Below, one piece after another: positions 8,873-45,319 of a stretch of 64,000 nt of DNA. The stretch is from Saccharomonospora piscinae (GTDB taxonomy: Bacteria; Actinomycetota; Actinomycetes; Mycobacteriales; Pseudonocardiaceae): the NCBI RefSeq assembly GCF_005862235.1, contig NZ_VCEK01000004.1:447869-511868 (forward strand). The letters run 5' to 3'. The notes below the pieces were generated by a model. It saw nothing but the letters and a program-made list of their open reading frames with translations. It did no database searches and was not told the DNA's origin. Numbering within the stretch: position 1 is the first letter of the stretch; every line of letters starts with the position of its first letter. The position numbers and the translations under genes were made by a program.

Positions 8873-11310
8873 CCGCCACGGCCGAACCGGAGATCGGCAG
8901 GGCTCGCCGCCGCAAGGAGGACGCCCGCCTGATCACCGGCCGCACCCGCTGGACCGACAACATCACGCTGCCCGGGATGCTGCACCTCGCCGTCCTGCGC
9001 AGCCCCGTCGCGCACGCGCGGATCACCGGCATCGACACCTCGGCGGCCAAGGAAATGCCGGGCGTGGTCGACGTGTTCACCGCCGAGGACCTCGACCCCG
9101 AGGGCGCCATCGGCATGCCGTGCGCCTGGCCCATCACCCCGGACATGAAGTGGCCCCGCAGGCCCGTTCTCGCCCAGGGGACCGTGAACTACGCGGGCGA
9201 GGGACTCGCCGTGGTGGTCGCCCGCAGCGCGGCGGAGGCCGAGGACGCGCTGGCCGAGATCGACGTCGACTTCGACGAACTGCCGGTCGTGCTGGGGCTG
9301 GACAACGCGCTGGCCGACGACGCCCCGCTGGTACACGACGACCTCGGCACCAATCGCAGTGCCGTGTGGACGTTCGACTCGGCCGAGGCCGGTACCGGTG
9401 AGGACGTCGAGCGGGCCATCACCGGATCGGAGGTCGTCCTGCGCCGCCGGTTCCGGCAGCAGCGGCTCGTGCCCGGGTTCATGGAACCGCGGTCGGTCGT
9501 CGTGGACCCGACCGCCCCGCAGCTCACCATGTGGTCGGCCACCCAGATCCCGCACATCCTCAAGACGATGTCCGCGCTCACACTCGGCATCCCGGAGCAC
9601 CAGCTCCGCGTCATCGCCCCGGACGTCGGGGGAGGGTTCGGCGGCAAGCTCGCGGTCGTTCCCGAGGAGTTCGCCGCCCTGCTGGTGGCCCGCAGGCTCG
9701 GCAGGCCGGTGAAGTGGACCGAGTCCCGCTCGGACACCATGGTCGCGGCCCACCACGGGCGCGACCAGGTTCAGGACATCACCATCTGCGCCACCCGGGA
9801 CGGCACCGTGACCGGGCTCAAGGTCGAGCTGCTCGCCGACATGGGTGCCTACCTGAGCCTCGTGGGGCCGGGGGTGCCCATCCTCGGCGCGTTCATGTTC
9901 AACGCGATCTACAAGTTCCCGGCCTACCACTTCACCTGCACCAACGTGTTCACCAACACCACCGTCACCGACGCCTACCGGGGTGCGGGACGGCCCGAGG
10001 CGACGTTCGCCATCGAGCGGATCATGGACGAGCTCGCGGCCGAGCTCGGGATGGATCCGATGGCGCTGCGGGAGAAGAACTGGATCTCCCACGACGAGTT
10101 CCCCTTCACCACGGTCGCGACGCTGACCTACGACTCGGGCAACTATGAGGCGGCCACCGAGAAGGCCATGCAGCTGTTCGACTACGACGGGCTGCGCCGC
10201 GAGCAGGCCGAACGCCGGGAGCGCGGCGATGCCGTGCAGCTCGGGATCGGCATCTCGACCTTCACGGAGATGTGCGGTCTGGCGCCGTCCCGCGTGCTGG
10301 GCGCACTCGACTACGGCGCGGGCGGCTGGGAGCACGCCGCCGTGCGGATGCTGCCCACGGGCAAGGTCGAGGTCGTCACCGGGGTGTCGGCCCACGGCCA
10401 GGGCCACGAGACGGCGTGGAGCCAGATCGTCGCCGACCAGCTCGGGGTGCCGTTCGAGGACGTCGAGATCCTGCACGGCGACACCCAATCGTCGCACAAG
10501 GGCCTCGACACCTACGGCTCGCGTTCACTGGCCGTCGGCGGCATCGCGGTCGTGAAGGCAGCGGACAAGGTGGTGGCCAAGGCCCGCACGATCGCCGCGC
10601 ACATGATGGAGTGCTCCGAGGACGACCTCGACTTCTCGGGCGGGACGTTCAAGGTCAGGGGCACCGACCGGTCCACCGCCATCCAGGACGTGGCGCTGCG
10701 GGTGTTCGCGGCTCACGACCTTCCCGACGGGGTCGAGCCCTCGCTGGACTCCGAGGCCACGTTCGACCCGGAGAACTTCTCGTTCCCGCACGGCACTCAC
10801 CTCTGCGCCGTCGAGGTGGACACCGAGACCGGGCGGGTGTCGATCCGCTCGTACGTCTGCGTGGATGACGTGGGTGCGGTGGTCAACCCGCTGATCGTCG
10901 AGGGCCAGATCCACGGCGGGCTCGCGCAGGGGATCGCGCAGGCGCTGTTCGAGGAGGCCGTGTTCGACGAGAGCGGCACGCTCATGTCGGGCACGTTCGC
11001 CGACTACCTGCTGCCTTCGGCGGCGGACCTGCCGGAGTTCACCACCGACCGGACCGAGACGCGCTCCACCACCAACCCGCTCGGCGTCAAGGGCGTGGGT
11101 GAGGCCGGCACCATCGCCTCCACTCCCGCCGTGGTGAACGCCGTCGTGGACGCCGTGCGCCACTTCGGTGTCCAGGACATCGAGATGCCGTGTACGCCGA
11201 TGCGGGTGTGGCGTGCCGTGCATGCCGGGGAACAGGCGGCGGGCGGAACGGGCACCGAGGCGGGCGGCGGCCTCGGCTCCATGGACGCGGAACGCGGAGG
11301 TGCGCAGTGA
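8869..11310 (+). CDS. Form II CoxL-like molybdenum hydroxylase, large subunit
   Basis: This 813-aa subunit binds molybdopterin cytosine dinucleotide. The N-terminal domain begins [19 protein letters not shown]. The molybdenum domain has [11 protein letters not shown], and the catalytic Glu is E745 in [13 protein letters not shown]. The active-site loop reads AYRGAGR at residues 369-375. In form I CO dehydrogenases this loop is AYXCSFR, with the Cys that binds copper. This is therefore a form II (CoxL-like) enzyme; whether such enzymes oxidise CO physiologically is unsettled. It is flanked by its small and FAD subunits. Confidence 0.92.
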
Positions 11311-12161
11311 TCCCGGCACAGTTCGAGTACCTTGCTCCGACCACAGTGGACGATGCCGTGCGGGCGCTGACCGAGGCGGGTGAGGACGCCAAGGTCATCG
11401 CGGGCGGGCAGAGCCTGCTGCCGGTGCTGCGGCTGCGCATGGCCGCACCCACGGTGCTGGTGGACCTCGGCCGGATCAGTGCTCTGCGGGGCGTGCGTGA
11501 CGAGGGCGACGCCGTCGTCATCGGGTCGATGACCACCCACCACGAGGTGCTGCGTGATCCGCTGGTGGCGGACCACGCCAGGCTGCTCGCCGAGGCGACC
11601 GCCACGGTGGCCGATCCGCAGGTGCGGCACCGGGGCACGTTCGGCGGCTCGCTGGCCCACGCGGACCCGGCGGGCGACCTGCTGGCTCCGGCGCTCGCGC
11701 TCGACGCGGAACTGGTGGTGCGCGGCATGGACGGCTCCCGCACCGTGCCCGCGGCGGAGTTCTTCGCCGACTTCTTCACCACCGCCCTGCGGCCGAACGA
11801 GATCCTCGTCGAGGTCCGGGTGCCCAAGCACACCGGCTGGCACGCGCGGTACGAGAAGTTCAACCGCGTGGCGCAGGCGTGGTCGATCGTCGCCGTGGCC
11901 GCCACCGTCCGTACCGAGGGCGGCACGATCGCCGAGGCCAGGGTCGGGCTGACCAACATGGCGTCGGTGCCGATGCGGGCGCACGCCGTGGAGTCGGCCC
12001 TGGTCGGGCAACCCGCGACCGCCGAGGTCGTGCGCTCGGCCGCCCAGCACGCTGCGGACGGCACGAGCCCGACGGCCGACGGCAACGCCGACGTCGAGTA
12101 TCGACGGCACCTCGCGCGGGTACTCACGGGCAGGGCGATCACGACCGCCGTCGCGGGCTGA
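11307..12161 (+). CDS. coxM: Cox-type hydroxylase, FAD-binding medium subunit
   Basis: The 284-aa subunit has the two FAD pyrophosphate loops of the family, AGGQSLLP at residues 32-39 and TFGGSLAHADPAGDLL near 110-125, and a C-terminal CO-dehydrogenase flavoprotein domain. It passes electrons from the iron-sulfur subunit to an acceptor. GTG 11307 overlaps the coxL stop as GTGA. The gene order S-L-M differs from the M-S-L order of classical CO dehydrogenase operons. Confidence 0.93.
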   Translation: MIPAQFEYLAPTTVDDAVRALTEAGEDAKVIAGGQSLLPVLRLRMAAPTVLVDLGRISALRGVRDEGDAVVIGSMTTHHEVLRDPLVADHARLLAEATATVADPQVRHRGTFGGSLAHADPAGDLLAPALALDAELVVRGMDGSRTVPAAEFFADFFTTALRPNEILVEVRVPKHTGWHARYEKFNRVAQAWSIVAVAATVRTEGGTIAEARVGLTNMASVPMRAHAVESALVGQPATAEVVRSAAQHAADGTSPTADGNADVEYRRHLARVLTGRAITTAVAG

Positions 12162-40696: not shown

Positions 40697-40999
40697 TCAG
40701 AAGTCCCGCGCGGTCTCGGCGGGCGCCGACGGGCCGAAGCGGCGCAGGTGCACGCGCCGCCGCAACCGGATGGCGGGCCGGCCCGCGAGCTGGAGGCTGC
40801 CGAGCACGAACAGCCAGGTCCCGGCGGTGGCGGTGCTCTCCCAGAAGAACAGCACGCTGCCCGCCAGGAACCAGAGCGCGATGAGCAGGTCGTTGCCGAT
40901 GCTGAGGACCTCGTAACGGTGCCGGACGACCAGTTCCTCGCGGCCGAGCGTGAGCACCAGCGTGCCGGGGCGGTCCTCGGGCTCGTCGATCCGTGGCAT
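40697..40999 (-). CDS. YrhK-like small membrane protein
   Basis: The 100-aa protein has a YrhK-type domain: RHRYEVLSIGNDLLIALWFL, a second helix (STATAGTWLFVLGSLQLAG), and the basic RPAIRLRRRVHLRRF. Two membrane helices are predicted. ATG 40999 overlaps the stop of the MFS exporter gene as TGATG, so the two are translationally coupled. Its function is unknown. Confidence 0.75.
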   Translation of the reverse strand: MPRIDEPEDRPGTLVLTLGREELVVRHRYEVLSIGNDLLIALWFLAGSVLFFWESTATAGTWLFVLGSLQLAGRPAIRLRRRVHLRRFGPSAPAETARDF

Positions 41000-42261
41000 C
41001 ACTCCACGGTGTCAGCCCGCACGGACCTCCGCAGTGTCGCGCGGGTCAGCACGGTGAACGTGGCCAGCGCCGCCGTGGTGCCCGTCGCCATGACGAGCGC
41101 CATCGGCAGGGCCGCGCCCCCGCCGCCGAGCAGCCCGACGAGGGGCGACGTGCCGCCGCCGACGAGGAACTGGATCAGCCCCAGCAGCGCCGACGCCGAA
41201 CCGGCGGTGCGCGGGTGATCGGCCAGGGCGAGTGTCGTGGTGTTCGGCGCGATCATCCCGACCGAGGACACGGTGACGAACAGCGGGACGAGCAACACGG
41301 GCAGCGCGACCTCGGCCGTGGCGGCGGCCACGAGCACCGCCGCGCCGCCGACGGCGATGAACAGGCCCGTGCGCAGCAGGGTCCGGGGCGCGAAGTGGCT
41401 CACGAGCCTGCCGTTGAGCTGGCCGACGGCCACCAGCCCCACGCCGTTGAGCGCGAACACCATGCCGTACTCGGTGGGGGAGAGCCCGTAGGTGTGCTGG
41501 AGCACGAACGACGAGCCGGAGATGTAGCTGAACATCGCCGAGAACGCCAGACCGAGGGTCAGCGCGTAGCCCACGAACACCCGGTTGCGCAGCAGCCCGG
41601 CGTAGGTGCGGGCGATGCCGCGTGGCCCGGCGGGCCTGCGGCGGTGCGCGGGCAGGGTCTCCGGGAGGGCGAGCGCGGCGACACCGAGCAGCACGACGCC
41701 GAACGCGCTGAGCACCACGAAGATCCCCCGCCAGGAGGTCCACTGCAACAGCTGCCCGCCGATCATCGGCGCGAGCACGGGGGCGACGCCGGTCACGAGC
41801 ATGAGGGTGGAGAAGAACCGCGCCATGGCGACCCCGGAGAACAGGTCGCGGACCGCGGCGCGGGCGACCACCATGCCGGTGGCCGCGCCCAGCGCCTGTA
41901 CCCCGCGTGCCGCGATGAGCACCTCGATGGTGGGGCTGAGCGCGGCGGCGGCCGAGGCGAGCGCGAACACCACGACGCCGACGAGCATCGGAGTCCGCCT
42001 GCCGAACGCGTCGGACAGCGGGCCCGCCACCAGCTGCCCGACGCCGAGCCCGACGAGGAACACCGCGAGCGTCAGCTGGAGCTGCGCGTCCGTCGAGCCG
42101 AGGTCGCCCGCCATGACCGGCAGCGCGGGCAGGTACATGTCGATCGACAGCGGGCCGAACGCCGTCAGCCCGCCGAGGAGCAGCGCGTACCGGGCGGTGC
42201 GGTGTCGCCGGGGCACGGCCCCGACGGTGGTCCCGGCCACGGACATGCTCGCGGTGGTCAC
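40999..42261 (-). CDS. Bcr/CflA-type multidrug MFS exporter
   Basis: The 420-aa transporter has 12 predicted helices and the Bcr/CflA pattern (LTAFGPLSIDMYLPALPVMA, GPLSDAFGRRTPMLVG, QALGAATGMVVARAAVRD). Members export drugs such as chloramphenicol or bicyclomycin, or small peptides. The start is a GTG with AGGAGG four bases upstream; an ATG five codons later is also possible. A hairpin and a TTAG-N5-CTAA palindrome lie just upstream. Confidence 0.88.
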   Translation of the reverse strand: MTTASMSVAGTTVGAVPRRHRTARYALLLGGLTAFGPLSIDMYLPALPVMAGDLGSTDAQLQLTLAVFLVGLGVGQLVAGPLSDAFGRRTPMLVGVVVFALASAAAALSPTIEVLIAARGVQALGAATGMVVARAAVRDLFSGVAMARFFSTLMLVTGVAPVLAPMIGGQLLQWTSWRGIFVVLSAFGVVLLGVAALALPETLPAHRRRPAGPRGIARTYAGLLRNRVFVGYALTLGLAFSAMFSYISGSSFVLQHTYGLSPTEYGMVFALNGVGLVAVGQLNGRLVSHFAPRTLLRTGLFIAVGGAAVLVAAATAEVALPVLLVPLFVTVSSVGMIAPNTTTLALADHPRTAGSASALLGLIQFLVGGGTSPLVGLLGGGGAALPMALVMATGTTAALATFTVLTRATLRRSVRADTVE

Positions 42262-42270
42262 ACAACCTCC

Positions 42271-42319
42271 TCTGGGTGGTCCCTGGTCCCGACCACCCAG
42301 AACTGCTTAGGAGGGCTAA
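42271..42319 (-). promoter_or_regulatory. Hairpin and palindrome before the MFS gene
   Basis: TCTGGGTGGTC (42271-42281) and GACCACCCAGA (42291-42301) form a perfect 11-bp stem with a 9-nt loop. Next to it, TTAG-GAGGG-CTAA (42307-42319) is a short palindrome overlapping the stop of the upstream gene. Together they could be a terminator or attenuator and an operator for the exporter. Confidence 0.45.
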
Positions 42320-43011
42320 ATATTCCGGCGGTCGGGTGACGTGTGATCTCGTCGAGAACCGGGCGAACCCGACAACACGTCGATGGCGTCCTCAAGCTGC
42401 TCGCGCGCCGGGTCGGACAGCCGGGCCTCGGCGTGCAGTTGCCGTGCGGCCAGTGCCAGCCGTTCGTGATCGGCGGCGGTGCCGACGTGACCGACGTACG
42501 CGGGAAGTAGCAGCGCGAGCGATCGGAGGTCCCGGCAGTCGCAGAGCTGTGCCAGCACGGCGGCGACCCGGTGTTCGCCGGTGGTGCGCACCACCGCGCC
42601 CGTGTCGCGCAGACCTTCGGCGACAGCATAACGCAGCCAGTCGGCGTACGGGCCGGGTGGCAGTGTGGCGAGGTGCTCGGCGGCGAGGCGGAAGTGCCGG
42701 GCCGCGCTGGTGTCGTCGCCCAGTTCGCGGTGGCACCGGCCGAGGTTCGCGTGCAGGGACGGGTAGAACGCGGCCACGCGCTCGTCGCCCACGGCGTCCG
42801 CGCGGTCGAGGCAGACGCTGTTCCAGTGCAGGCGGTCTCGCGGGGTCGGCTGGTGCCGGGCGAGGTAGTGGGCCGCGACACACGCCTCGTAGTCGTCGTT
42901 CGCGCGTTGCCAGGCCTGGTCGAACAGGCGCACCGCCCGCTCGGTCTCGCCCGCGGCCTCGGCGCTCATGCCGTCGGCGCACAGACGGATGACGGGGTTC
43001 TCGGTATCCAT
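42316..43011 (-). CDS. TPR-like helical protein
   Basis: The 231-aa protein is largely alpha-helical with repeat-like units (GETERAVRLFDQAWQRANDD, LHANLGRCHRELGDDTSAAR, HFRLAAEHLATLPPGPYADW). It resembles small tetratricopeptide proteins, and the C-terminus is hydrophilic. It starts 11 bp after the MerR-clamp gene and is probably co-transcribed with it. The partner is unknown. Confidence 0.7.
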   Translation of the reverse strand: MDTENPVIRLCADGMSAEAAGETERAVRLFDQAWQRANDDYEACVAAHYLARHQPTPRDRLHWNSVCLDRADAVGDERVAAFYPSLHANLGRCHRELGDDTSAARHFRLAAEHLATLPPGPYADWLRYAVAEGLRDTGAVVRTTGEHRVAAVLAQLCDCRDLRSLALLLPAYVGHVGTAADHERLALAARQLHAEARLSDPAREQLEDAIDVLSGSPGSRRDHTSPDRRNI

Positions 43012-43022
43012 GGCTCTGCCCC

Positions 43023-44057
43023 TCAGTCGCTTTCCGCGTGGACCGGCATCACGAGCGTGGTGAAACTGCCCTGGTCGGCGGAGCGCACGACCACGGGCCG
43101 GTCGGGTGCGGTGATCTCCAGCAGCACGTCGGGCCCGACACCGGCCGCCACCACGGGCGCGAGTACGGCCGGGTCGAAGGCCAGCCGGATCGGCTCGGAA
43201 CACACGGCGGGCACCACCACGTCACCGACGTGCAGCGTGTCCCGCCCGGTTGTCACCACCACGGTGCCGTCGGCGGCGCTGAGCGCGTCGTACAGGGCGG
43301 TCCGGTCGGTCACGACCCGGCTGCGCGCGTCGCCGAGCGCGTCGAGCACCGCCCGGTAGTCGGGGTAGTCGTCGTCGCACACGGGGAGGTCCACCACGTC
43401 GTCCGCCGCCCGGGCCTCGCCCGCGAGCAGGCGGAGGCCCTCGTCGCCGGCCACCAGCCGTACCACCGGGTGCCGCACCGCCCACCCCGCGGCCTCCACC
43501 AGCGGCGCGACCGGGACGAGGACGTGGGCCGGGGTGCCGACGACGGCCTGCGGCACCAGGTCGCGCACCGCCAGCCGGTAGCGGTCGGTGGCCGCGAGCC
43601 GCACGGCCTCGGGTGAACACTCGATGAGGACGCACCCCAGCGCGGCCACGGTGCCGGAGCGTGCCGCCGCGGGGTGGACCTGCCGGATGGCGCTGGCCAG
43701 CTCGGCGCCGCCGATGGTCACCTCCACGTGACGTTCGCCGCTGACCAGCCGCAATGCCGCGCGCACGGCGGTGTGGGCGGCCTCCGCCCGGTCGCGTAAC
43801 CGGTGGGCGTGGGCGGTGAGCGCGTCGCGGGCCTGCGACGCCGGGCCGGTGAGCACCGAGGGGACGTCGGCGAGCGGGAACTCGGCCTCCCGCAGGGTGC
43901 GCAACAGCGCGGCGTCCCGTTCCTGCTCGGAGCTGTAGTAGCGGTAGCCCGAGCCGGGATCGACCCTGGCGGGGCGCAGCACCCCGCAGTCGTCGTAGAA
44001 GCGCAGTGCGCTCGGGGTGAGGCCCACTCTCCGGGCGAACGTGCTGATCGTGTCCAT
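43023..44057 (-). CDS. MerR regulator fused to DNA polymerase beta-clamp-like domains
   Basis: Residues 1-70 form a MerR helix-turn-helix (TISTFARRVGLTPSALRFYD, GYRYYSSEQERDAALLRTL), followed by a short helical linker. From about residue 125 the protein looks like sliding-clamp domains: GGAELASAIRQVHPAAARSG, LAATDRYRLAVRDL, DDDYPDYRAVLDAL, SRVVTDRTALYDALSAA, IRLAFDPAVLAPVVAAG and the DnaN-like end VVVRSADQGSFTTLVMPV. Total length is 344 aa, enough for about two clamp domains. Similar proteins occur in actinobacteria; their role is unknown. It heads an operon with the TPR-like gene. Confidence 0.83.
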   Translation of the reverse strand: MDTISTFARRVGLTPSALRFYDDCGVLRPARVDPGSGYRYYSSEQERDAALLRTLREAEFPLADVPSVLTGPASQARDALTAHAHRLRDRAEAAHTAVRAALRLVSGERHVEVTIGGAELASAIRQVHPAAARSGTVAALGCVLIECSPEAVRLAATDRYRLAVRDLVPQAVVGTPAHVLVPVAPLVEAAGWAVRHPVVRLVAGDEGLRLLAGEARAADDVVDLPVCDDDYPDYRAVLDALGDARSRVVTDRTALYDALSAADGTVVVTTGRDTLHVGDVVVPAVCSEPIRLAFDPAVLAPVVAAGVGPDVLLEITAPDRPVVVRSADQGSFTTLVMPVHAESD

Positions 44058-44149
44058 GGCCGGAGAGTCTGGAGGTTCGAGCGGCACGAAGGTCAACCGT
44101 AGGATGCCGGGCACGGCCGTCGGACGGCGACACGGTGCGGGAGGCGCGG

Positions 44150-45319
44150 ATGAACGAGCGGTTCGGTTCCTACCAGAGCGAGATCTACCTGCAGGGTTAC
44201 GGCGGCACCAGCCCGGCCTTCACGACCGACCTCACCCGCGTGGAGGCCGCGGCCGAGCAGGTGCTGGAGCCGGGCCCGTTCTCCTACGTCGCGGGCGGCG
44301 CGGGCTCGGGCTCCACGGCCCGCGCGAACCGCGAGGCGTTCGACCGCTGGCGGATCGTGCCGCGCATGCTCACCGGCGCCACCGAGCGCGACACCTCCGT
44401 CACGGTGCTGGGCGAGACGTTGCCCGCGCCGGTGGCGCTCGCGCCCGTCGGAGTGCAGTCCATCGTGCATGCCGACGCCGAAGCCGCCACCGCGCGGGCC
44501 GCCGCGGGACTGCGACTGCCGATGGTGCTGTCCACCGCGTCGTCGACCAGCATCGAGGAGGTCGCCGCCGAGTCGGGTGCCGGTCCCCGCTGGTTCCAGT
44601 TGTACTGGCCGAACGATCCGGACGTGTGCGGCAGCATCCTCGCGCGGGCCCGTGCGGCGGGCTACTCGGTGCTGGTGGTCACACTCGACACCTGGTCGCT
44701 GGGCTGGCGACCGTGCGACCTCGACAACGGGTATCTCCCCTTCCTGCGGGGCGAGGGCACCGCCGTGCCGTTCAGCGACCCGGTGTTCCGCTCCCGGCTC
44801 GACGCCGCACCGGAGGACGACCTGCCGATGGCGGTGCTCCGGTGGATCTCGATGATCACAGGCACGGACCGGGACTGGGACGCGCTGCCGTTCCTGCGGG
44901 AGCACTGGGACGGGCCGATCGTGCTCAAGGGCATCCAGCACGTGGACGACGCGCGCCGCGCGGCGCGGGCGGGCGTGGACGGCATCGTGGTGTCCAACCA
45001 CGGCGGGCGGCAGGTGGACGGCGCGGTCGCGGCGCTGGACGTGCTGCCCGAGATCGCCGCCGCGGTCGGCGACCGCCTGGACGTGCTGTTCGACTCCGGG
45101 GTGCGGACCGGGGCCGACGTGGTCAAGGCGCTGGCTCTCGGTGCCAAGGCGGTGCTGCTCGGGCGTCCCTGGGTCTACGGGCTGGCCCTGGGCGGCGAGG
45201 ACGGCGTGCGCCACGTGCTGCGCGGGCTGCTCGCCGACCTCGACCTCACCCTGGGGCTCGCGGGCCACCGCTCCGTCACCGGCCTCACCCCGGCGGCGCT
45301 CACCCGCGCCGGGCGTTAA
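44150..45319 (+). CDS. Lactate 2-monooxygenase-like FMN enzyme
   Basis: The 389-aa flavoenzyme belongs to the FMN alpha-hydroxy-acid family: YVAGGAGSGSTARANREAF, LAPVGVQSIVHADAE, the catalytic VVSNHGGRQVDGAVAALDVL and DSGVRTGADVVKALALGA. DTWSLGWRPCDLDNGYLPF is the segment typical of lactate 2-monooxygenase, which turns lactate and oxygen into acetate, CO2 and water. ATG 44150 has GGGAGG five bases upstream. It is divergent from the MerR-clamp gene. Confidence 0.9.
   Translation: MNERFGSYQSEIYLQGYGGTSPAFTTDLTRVEAAAEQVLEPGPFSYVAGGAGSGSTARANREAFDRWRIVPRMLTGATERDTSVTVLGETLPAPVALAPVGVQSIVHADAEAATARAAAGLRLPMVLSTASSTSIEEVAAESGAGPRWFQLYWPNDPDVCGSILARARAAGYSVLVVTLDTWSLGWRPCDLDNGYLPFLRGEGTAVPFSDPVFRSRLDAAPEDDLPMAVLRWISMITGTDRDWDALPFLREHWDGPIVLKGIQHVDDARRAARAGVDGIVVSNHGGRQVDGAVAALDVLPEIAAAVGDRLDVLFDSGVRTGADVVKALALGAKAVLLGRPWVYGLALGGEDGVRHVLRGLLADLDLTLGLAGHRSVTGLTPAALTRAGR

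Follow-up and report, generated by a model that had tools for sequence, protein, structure and literature searches.

A MerR-type regulator with a sliding-clamp-derived effector half in Saccharomonospora piscinae and its predicted regulon in Actinomycetota

The window analyzed here, a stretch of 64,000 nucleotides (nt) from Saccharomonospora piscinae (contig NZ_VCEK01000004.1 of assembly GCF_005862235.1, positions 447,869 to 511,868), encodes a regulator in which a MerR-type DNA-binding head is fused to two domains of the bacterial sliding clamp DnaN. Its ligands are probably molecules that bind to the clamp and block it. The regulator gene, its promoter, and the two genes that follow it on the same strand are as follows, with positions counted from the first letter of the window:

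43023..44057, reverse strand: MerR-clamp regulator, 344 amino acids; residues 3-66 form the MerR head, 73-106 a long helix, and 109-342 clamp domains II and III, in which subsite I of the clamp-binding motif/drug pocket is kept
44066..44096, reverse strand: MerR-type promoter/operator, with -35 TTGACC, a 19-bp spacer, and -10 CAGACT, 8 nt ahead of the ATG at 44057 (near-leaderless)
42316..43011, reverse strand: TPR-like partner, 231 amino acids, predicted across the family to belong to the regulon, either in cis or in trans
40999..42261, reverse strand: Bcr/CflA efflux transporter of the major facilitator superfamily (MFS), 420 amino acids, 54 nt after the TPR gene on the same strand

The MerR-clamp fusion and its pocket

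The fusion of a MerR head to clamp domains is confirmed. Residues 3-66 match MerR_1 (PF13411; 48.3 bits against a Pfam cutoff of 21.6), and PF00376 also exceeds its curated cutoff in the same head (38.7 bits versus 28.2). Clamp domain II is recognized by DNA_pol3_beta_2 at residues 117-223 (41.5 bits; cutoff, 27), and DNA_pol3_beta_3 scores below its cutoff at residues 279-339 (13.3 bits versus 27). The NCBIfam DnaN model TIGR00663 aligns to the regulator from model position 122 to 366, at 51.6 bits and far under its equivalog cutoff of 137.65; because the alignment begins at model position 122, clamp domain I is missing. A sliding clamp DnaN has three domains, and the regulator has only domains II and III. 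An AlphaFold model built from a 29-sequence alignment (alignment A1 holds 29 of 30 regulator proteins, with L030 omitted) reached a mean predicted local distance difference test score (pLDDT) of 94.0 and matched mycobacterial clamps in Foldseek with an E value of 3.3e-18. In a VIA superposition, residues 109-342 lay on solved sliding clamps with a Z score of 28.3 and 1.8 Å over 226 residues; identity with mycobacterial clamps was 26-31% across about 225 residues. The same genome encodes an ordinary DnaN elsewhere, which is 33% identical to the regulator over residues 115-331. The original prediction, made from the sequence alone, had proposed a MerR head and about two beta-clamp-like domains; both domain calls were borne out, and the C-terminal part is predicted to fold as a clamp. 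Among 200 genomes of the order, source genome included, at least 43 other genomes have a match spanning at least 250 residues, so the fusion is not due to chance.

To ask which clamp features persist, pocket residues described in the available excerpts of PMC11139829 were mapped through Escherichia coli DnaN onto 110 regulator members, with 56 DnaNs for reference and with positions that are more than half gaps set aside in the entropy comparison. Subsite I seats the LF end of clamp-binding motifs according to the same excerpts. Its equivalents of P242 and M362 are conserved in 110 of 110 members, and further pocket equivalents are retained at T172 (107/110), R176 (105/110), L155 (102/110), and L177 (93/110). 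Median entropy at subsite I is 0.62, compared to 2.42 elsewhere (p = 7e-5), and 0.35 versus 2.11 when subsite I is set against the other positions conserved in DnaN (p 0.003). The original guess that the protein senses clamp-binding proteins or small ligands thus gains support, subsite I being the conserved surface.

The features that hold a clamp together around DNA have fared differently. At ring-interface positions Ile272/Leu273, 109 of 110 members have a gap; ring-interface Glu304, a Glu in 56/56 DnaNs, is not conserved in the regulator family; and at channel position Lys198, where 56/56 DnaNs have Arg or Lys, 81 of the 110 members have Asp, Ala, or Pro. On balance, the sequences indicate that the ring has been lost while the main half of the peptide/drug pocket has been retained, and by this measure the effector half is a de-ringed sliding clamp without what a clamp needs to encircle DNA. 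The original prediction had considered that the clamp domains might close a ring or load onto DNA at the operator. The presence of two genuine clamp domains speaks for such a model, but with Ile272/Leu273 gapped in nearly all members, Glu304 and Lys198 not retained, and domain I absent, we regard it as very improbable. The accompanying puzzle, that two-domain chains would need a trimer to close a ring while MerR heads dimerize, does not arise, because domain I, the ring-interface residues, and the basic Lys198 are not retained; the long helix at residues 73-106 appears compatible with an ordinary MerR dimer.

Several known systems are useful for comparison. The MerR activators BmrR and TipA resemble the regulator in their MerR head, long dimer helix, 19-bp-spacer promoter, and nearby efflux gene; their effector is a drug-binding C-terminal domain of the GyrI-like or TipAS kind, unlike the replication-clamp fold found here. 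The beta-lactam sensors BlaR1 and MecR1, whose sensor domain resembles the drug target, follow the same logic of sensing a drug by a copy of its target fold, but they are unrelated proteins that signal through a membrane protease. DnaN itself differs from the regulator in having domain I, the ring interface, and the Lys198 charge and in having no fused DNA-binding head. GriR and MypR, the second DnaN copies of the griselimycin and mycoplanecin clusters, are likewise clamp-derived proteins with the pocket, outside replication proper, but the excerpts of PMC10817943 describe them as DnaN genes in self-resistance, and the MerR-clamp protein is a regulator. A MerR regulator with a ligand domain is a known kind of protein. 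Among the matches listed in open-licence PMC literature, no title or abstract concerned a MerR-clamp fusion, and no sliding-clamp sensor with dnaN in its predicted regulon was encountered.

The operator and the genes that carry it

The putative operator has the overlong spacer (about 19 bp) between -35 and -10 that marks MerR operators. Across the family, the motif TTGAC[CT][CT]T[CT] is present in 80 of 81 regulator upstream regions, L049 being the sole exception, and a -10 element of the form nAnnnT (A2/T6) follows at 19-bp spacing in all 80. The spacer of these promoters holds an inverted repeat, and 6-8 nt separate the -10 element from the start codon in the promoter examples displayed. The motif is rare: it occurs 90 times in 2.65 million positions across 80 loci, and 79 of those occurrences are regulator promoters. 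The only zero-mismatch match in the source genome is the regulator's own promoter. Four three-mismatch sites were also found there, none of which precedes a gene kind tested, and a looser pattern gave four matches, three of them unrelated to predicted regulon genes.

Searching with the operator alone, blind to gene content, we predicted a regulon in other genomes. The exact pattern was searched in 81 genomes of a Micromonospora-like genus, a label inferred from the placement of Micromonospora lutea (L102) in the same tree clade. It gave 22 matches in 22 genomes and none in a reversed control; the best protein match at these sites was the regulator in 7, YunG in 10 (2 partial), dnaN in 4, and TPR in 1 (partial). 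A second pattern, applied to 48 named genomes (47 of clade A and L108 of clade B; clades described below), gave 34 matches in 33 genomes, and the 31 sites examined comprised 29 own promoters and 2 unlinked TPR genes. These two TPR genes are those of Nocardioides luteus and Kribbella catacumbae, where the regulators instead adjoin an MFS gene. At 10 loci in all (L135, L142, L150, L162, L164, L166, L168, L257, L294, and L305), the operator precedes a TPR gene and the 3-kb locus contains no regulator. A further listing, in which most sites carry three mismatches and of which 30 loci, a part of all sites, were examined, yielded 23 loci matching one of five gene kinds and 7 matching none. Another set of 18 operator loci held 9 own promoters, 4 unlinked TPR genes, and 5 loci that match none. 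Taken together, these sites outline a compact predicted regulon of the regulator itself, the TPR gene (in cis or unlinked), YunG, an MFS transporter, and dnaN.

YunG-family genes with the operator were observed in the Micromonospora-like genus at L154 (1045-1485, reverse strand), L193 (1572-1970), L255, L259-L261, L266, L269, L272, and L273. The operator at these genes mostly precedes a near-leaderless start, and PF24585 was confirmed in the two YunG loci scanned, L154 and L193. At L166 and L168, which belong to one genus, a perfect operator near positions 1200-1500 precedes a TPR gene whose frame appears broken. The clade-B loci L192 and L194 have a common two-mismatch operator-like site (CTGACCCTGGACCATGTCGAGGG), apparently within a coding region.

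For dnaN, a matrix built from 13 autoregulatory sites was used to scan the 1500 nt upstream of the gene. An operator was found in 21 of 22 Micromonospora-like genomes, all 22 of which have the regulator. It lies about 690 nt from the dnaN match start (-688 to -704) and scores 24-51, compared to at most 2.3 for shuffles; on the reverse strand, one genome (L206) scored 16.9, a value we attribute to the operator's own palindrome. In the loci displayed, the operator follows the dnaA end and stands just before DnaA-box-like repeats, beside oriC, so the promoter would point through the origin region towards dnaN. These 22 genomes are one genus and are not independent, a concern addressed by comparing the operator with its flanks: among the 21 genomes the operator is 81% identical, whereas the 31 nt preceding it are 34% identical and the 31 nt following it 52%, the identities being ungapped, which lowers the flank values. 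At L212 (genome G015), the regulator is present, the dnaN operator is missing at about -690, and DnaA-box-like repeats are present.

No dnaN operator was found in four of four genomes from other genera of the family that lack a full-length regulator, one of which (G063) is known only by a best E value of 2.1e-12 in the regulator search. We also chose 30 genomes outside the genus, of which 29 were distinct (G194 and G208 gave identical loci). Of the upstream regions scanned, that of L231 reached 10.9, the null maximum being 8.7, and this was treated as chance. As the dnaN operator was seen in one genus and in 0 of 29 genomes elsewhere, dnaN was rejected as a universal target.

Neighbouring genes and distribution of the family

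The TPR-like partner begins 11 nt downstream of the regulator gene. It scores under Pfam cutoffs; its predicted fold consists of helical hairpins (pLDDT 93.4), and its best PDB matches are TPR proteins, all of them weak (best E 1.1e-3, none under 0.001). A partner profile recognizes the open reading frame (ORF) directly downstream of the regulator in 44 of 80 relatives, and in 41 of 80 a codon-usage gene caller assigns the TPR-like partner the first place in the operon. By eye, no clamp-binding motif was seen in an alignment (A2) of 27 of about 45 TPR proteins, and no further search was made. The Bcr/CflA MFS gene is the probable third gene of the operon, so that in the window an efflux gene would belong to the regulator's operon. 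Both the TPR-like partner and the efflux gene had been anticipated by the original prediction, and both are there.

Efflux genes recur in the family in scattered positions. An MFS gene of the window's Bcr/CflA type is also found in the operon or directly downstream in L011; another MFS type takes that position in L019, L051, L062, and L088, and in L134 an MFS gene lies under an unlinked operator. With partner labels assigned by hand, the five relatives with an MFS gene in cis require at least three label changes on the tree. An efflux gene as a universal partner was rejected, strong relatives of the window's MFS type (59-64% identity) occurring near the regulator in only 2 of 80 loci; in those two it lies outside the regulator operon, and L011 is a third case, from a separate genome set.

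The remaining neighbour of the regulator is a divergently oriented gene:

44135..45319, forward strand: flavin mononucleotide (FMN)-dependent alpha-hydroxy-acid dehydrogenase, sharing a common intergenic region with the regulator

Among the 80 loci, L038 and L046 alone have this dehydrogenase near the regulator. On the other side, a 101-amino-acid ORF at 40697-41002 on the reverse strand has a 4-nt overlap with the end of the MFS gene and encodes what we take to be a YrhK-type membrane protein. In Gordonia asplenii (L061), the regulator is followed at 9067-11967 on the forward strand by a 967-amino-acid ORF with many hydrophobic stretches and only a weak Patatin match. An anti-phage system was considered and rejected, PADLOC giving just a weak match of the MerR head to mad1 at 20 bits.

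A tree of 110 regulator proteins divides into clade A (76 rows, the window protein among them) and clade B (34 rows) with support of 100/100. The best 80 loci of a contig scan all match over most of the regulator, and all 80 come from Actinomycetota. In a sample of 296 genomes of the phylum, 9 (own genome included) have a full-length or near-full-length regulator, all in the same class, and the weaker rows displayed are DnaN-only or MerR-only matches. Full-length members are also present on the Streptomyces and Kitasatospora plasmid records NZ_CP107984, NZ_CP115452, and NZ_CP033583, where their annotation goes no further than the MerR family. Nine records of the plasmid collection matched: seven give the name "MerR family transcriptional regulator," one lacks a feature at that position, and one is unannotated.

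These distributions bear on an explanation that involves no antibiotic. The pocket could sample free clamp-binding proteins, such as polymerases, ImuB-like translesion factors, and the clamp-loader delta subunit, so that dnaN and helper genes would be activated whenever such proteins outnumber clamps. The half of the pocket that is retained, subsite I, is the seat of the motif's LF end (PMC11139829, as excerpted), the dnaN operator stands beside oriC in 21 of 22 genomes, and the regulator is widely present in Actinomycetes, all of which such an internal sensor of the replication state would accommodate. Replication homeostasis does not explain why MFS genes, of two kinds, accompany the system in seven places, whether within the operon, next to it, or under the operator, nor does it sit well with so patchy a system (9 full-length matches in 296 phylum genomes) or with the finding that none of the 29 genomes tested outside the genus has dnaN as a target. 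We consider this explanation unlikely, although if true it would mean a transcription factor reading the replisome's own hub.

A proposed decoy for clamp-pocket ligands

Our preferred interpretation, which we hold to be likely, is that a decoy of the clamp pocket senses clamp-blocking ligands, most plausibly griselimycin-like ones, and that the answer is efflux and, in one genus, more clamp. The fold, the pocket conservation, the loss of ring features, the conserved promoter, and the set of operator-bearing genes are computed results, and the identity of the ligand, activation, and the roles of the TPR and YunG proteins are inferred. A regulator dimer would bind its own promoter at the 19-bp spacer, in an autoregulatory arrangement. 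A ligand of the clamp pocket would occupy subsite I, and the ligand-bound regulator would reshape the overlong spacer as other MerR activators do, turning on its own operon plus a small number of unlinked genes that share its operator. The targets would be the gene for the TPR protein, in some lineages one for an MFS pump, and in the Micromonospora-like genus YunG and dnaN. With a clamp-targeting antibiotic as the most likely ligand, the response would consist of export and extra target; efflux together with extra dnaN fits antibiotics that bind the clamp pocket. In the parts of PMC5694481 available, griselimycin binds between clamp domains II and III and resistance to it arises through amplification of the dnaN/ori region, and the excerpts of PMC10817943 describe mycoplanecins as binding the same pocket, with a second DnaN gene in their cluster.

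A number of observations weigh against this interpretation. Griselimycin and mycoplanecin also fill subsite II (PMC10817943, as excerpted), and the subsite II set (Asn320, Tyr323, Val344, Pro363, Met364, and Arg365) is not conserved in the regulator family (median entropy 2.41 versus 2.42, p 0.34), the Pro363 equivalent alone being retained in 110/110 members; at the Arg365 position, the residue that would hydrogen-bond mycoplanecin, the window protein has His. At the position of Gln149, an E. coli DNA contact, 56/56 DnaNs have Asp, which 59 of 110 members retain, and drift has therefore not occurred at every DNA-facing position. Most family members have no MFS gene beside them, and in the 1500 nt upstream of dnaN the operator was absent from all 29 distinct genomes outside the genus, the source genome included. 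In 18 named clade-B genomes, the operator precedes the regulator in 18/18 and YunG in one, with two unexplained two-mismatch sites, so that no output gene was found for most of clade B. Strict operator patterns miss many sites: 59 of the 81 Micromonospora-like genomes and 15 of the 48 named ones gave no match. A shared operator is only a prediction of binding; another MerR protein could use the same sites.

Some of these observations would also suit a clamp half that is a mere scaffold, reused as a sensor of a small molecule or metabolite unrelated to clamp biology, with its pocket kept for folding. The divergence of subsite II, the below-cutoff Pfam score of domain III, and the lack of a known ligand are in keeping with that idea. 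It does not account for the conservation of subsite I while other DnaN-conserved positions diverge (0.35 versus 2.11, as above) or for dnaN itself being a predicted target in one genus, and we judge it quite improbable.

Under the decoy interpretation, a broader statement is possible, if somewhat less secure: that a widespread actinobacterial class of transcription factors senses clamp-pocket occupancy with a decoy clamp and that the Micromonospora-like genus fires a promoter between dnaA and oriC towards dnaN. If so, regulation would do what griselimycin-resistant mutants do by dnaN/ori amplification, and clamp-targeting natural products would be far commoner in soil than the few known. The clamp pocket is an attractive antibacterial target, and the regulator would offer a ready-made, genetically encoded sensor for its ligands; in genomes, it would mark organisms with exposure to antibiotics that target the clamp. 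For these bacteria, the predicted regulon suggests a route of defence that would combine export and, in one genus, raised dnaN from a promoter adjoining the replication origin.
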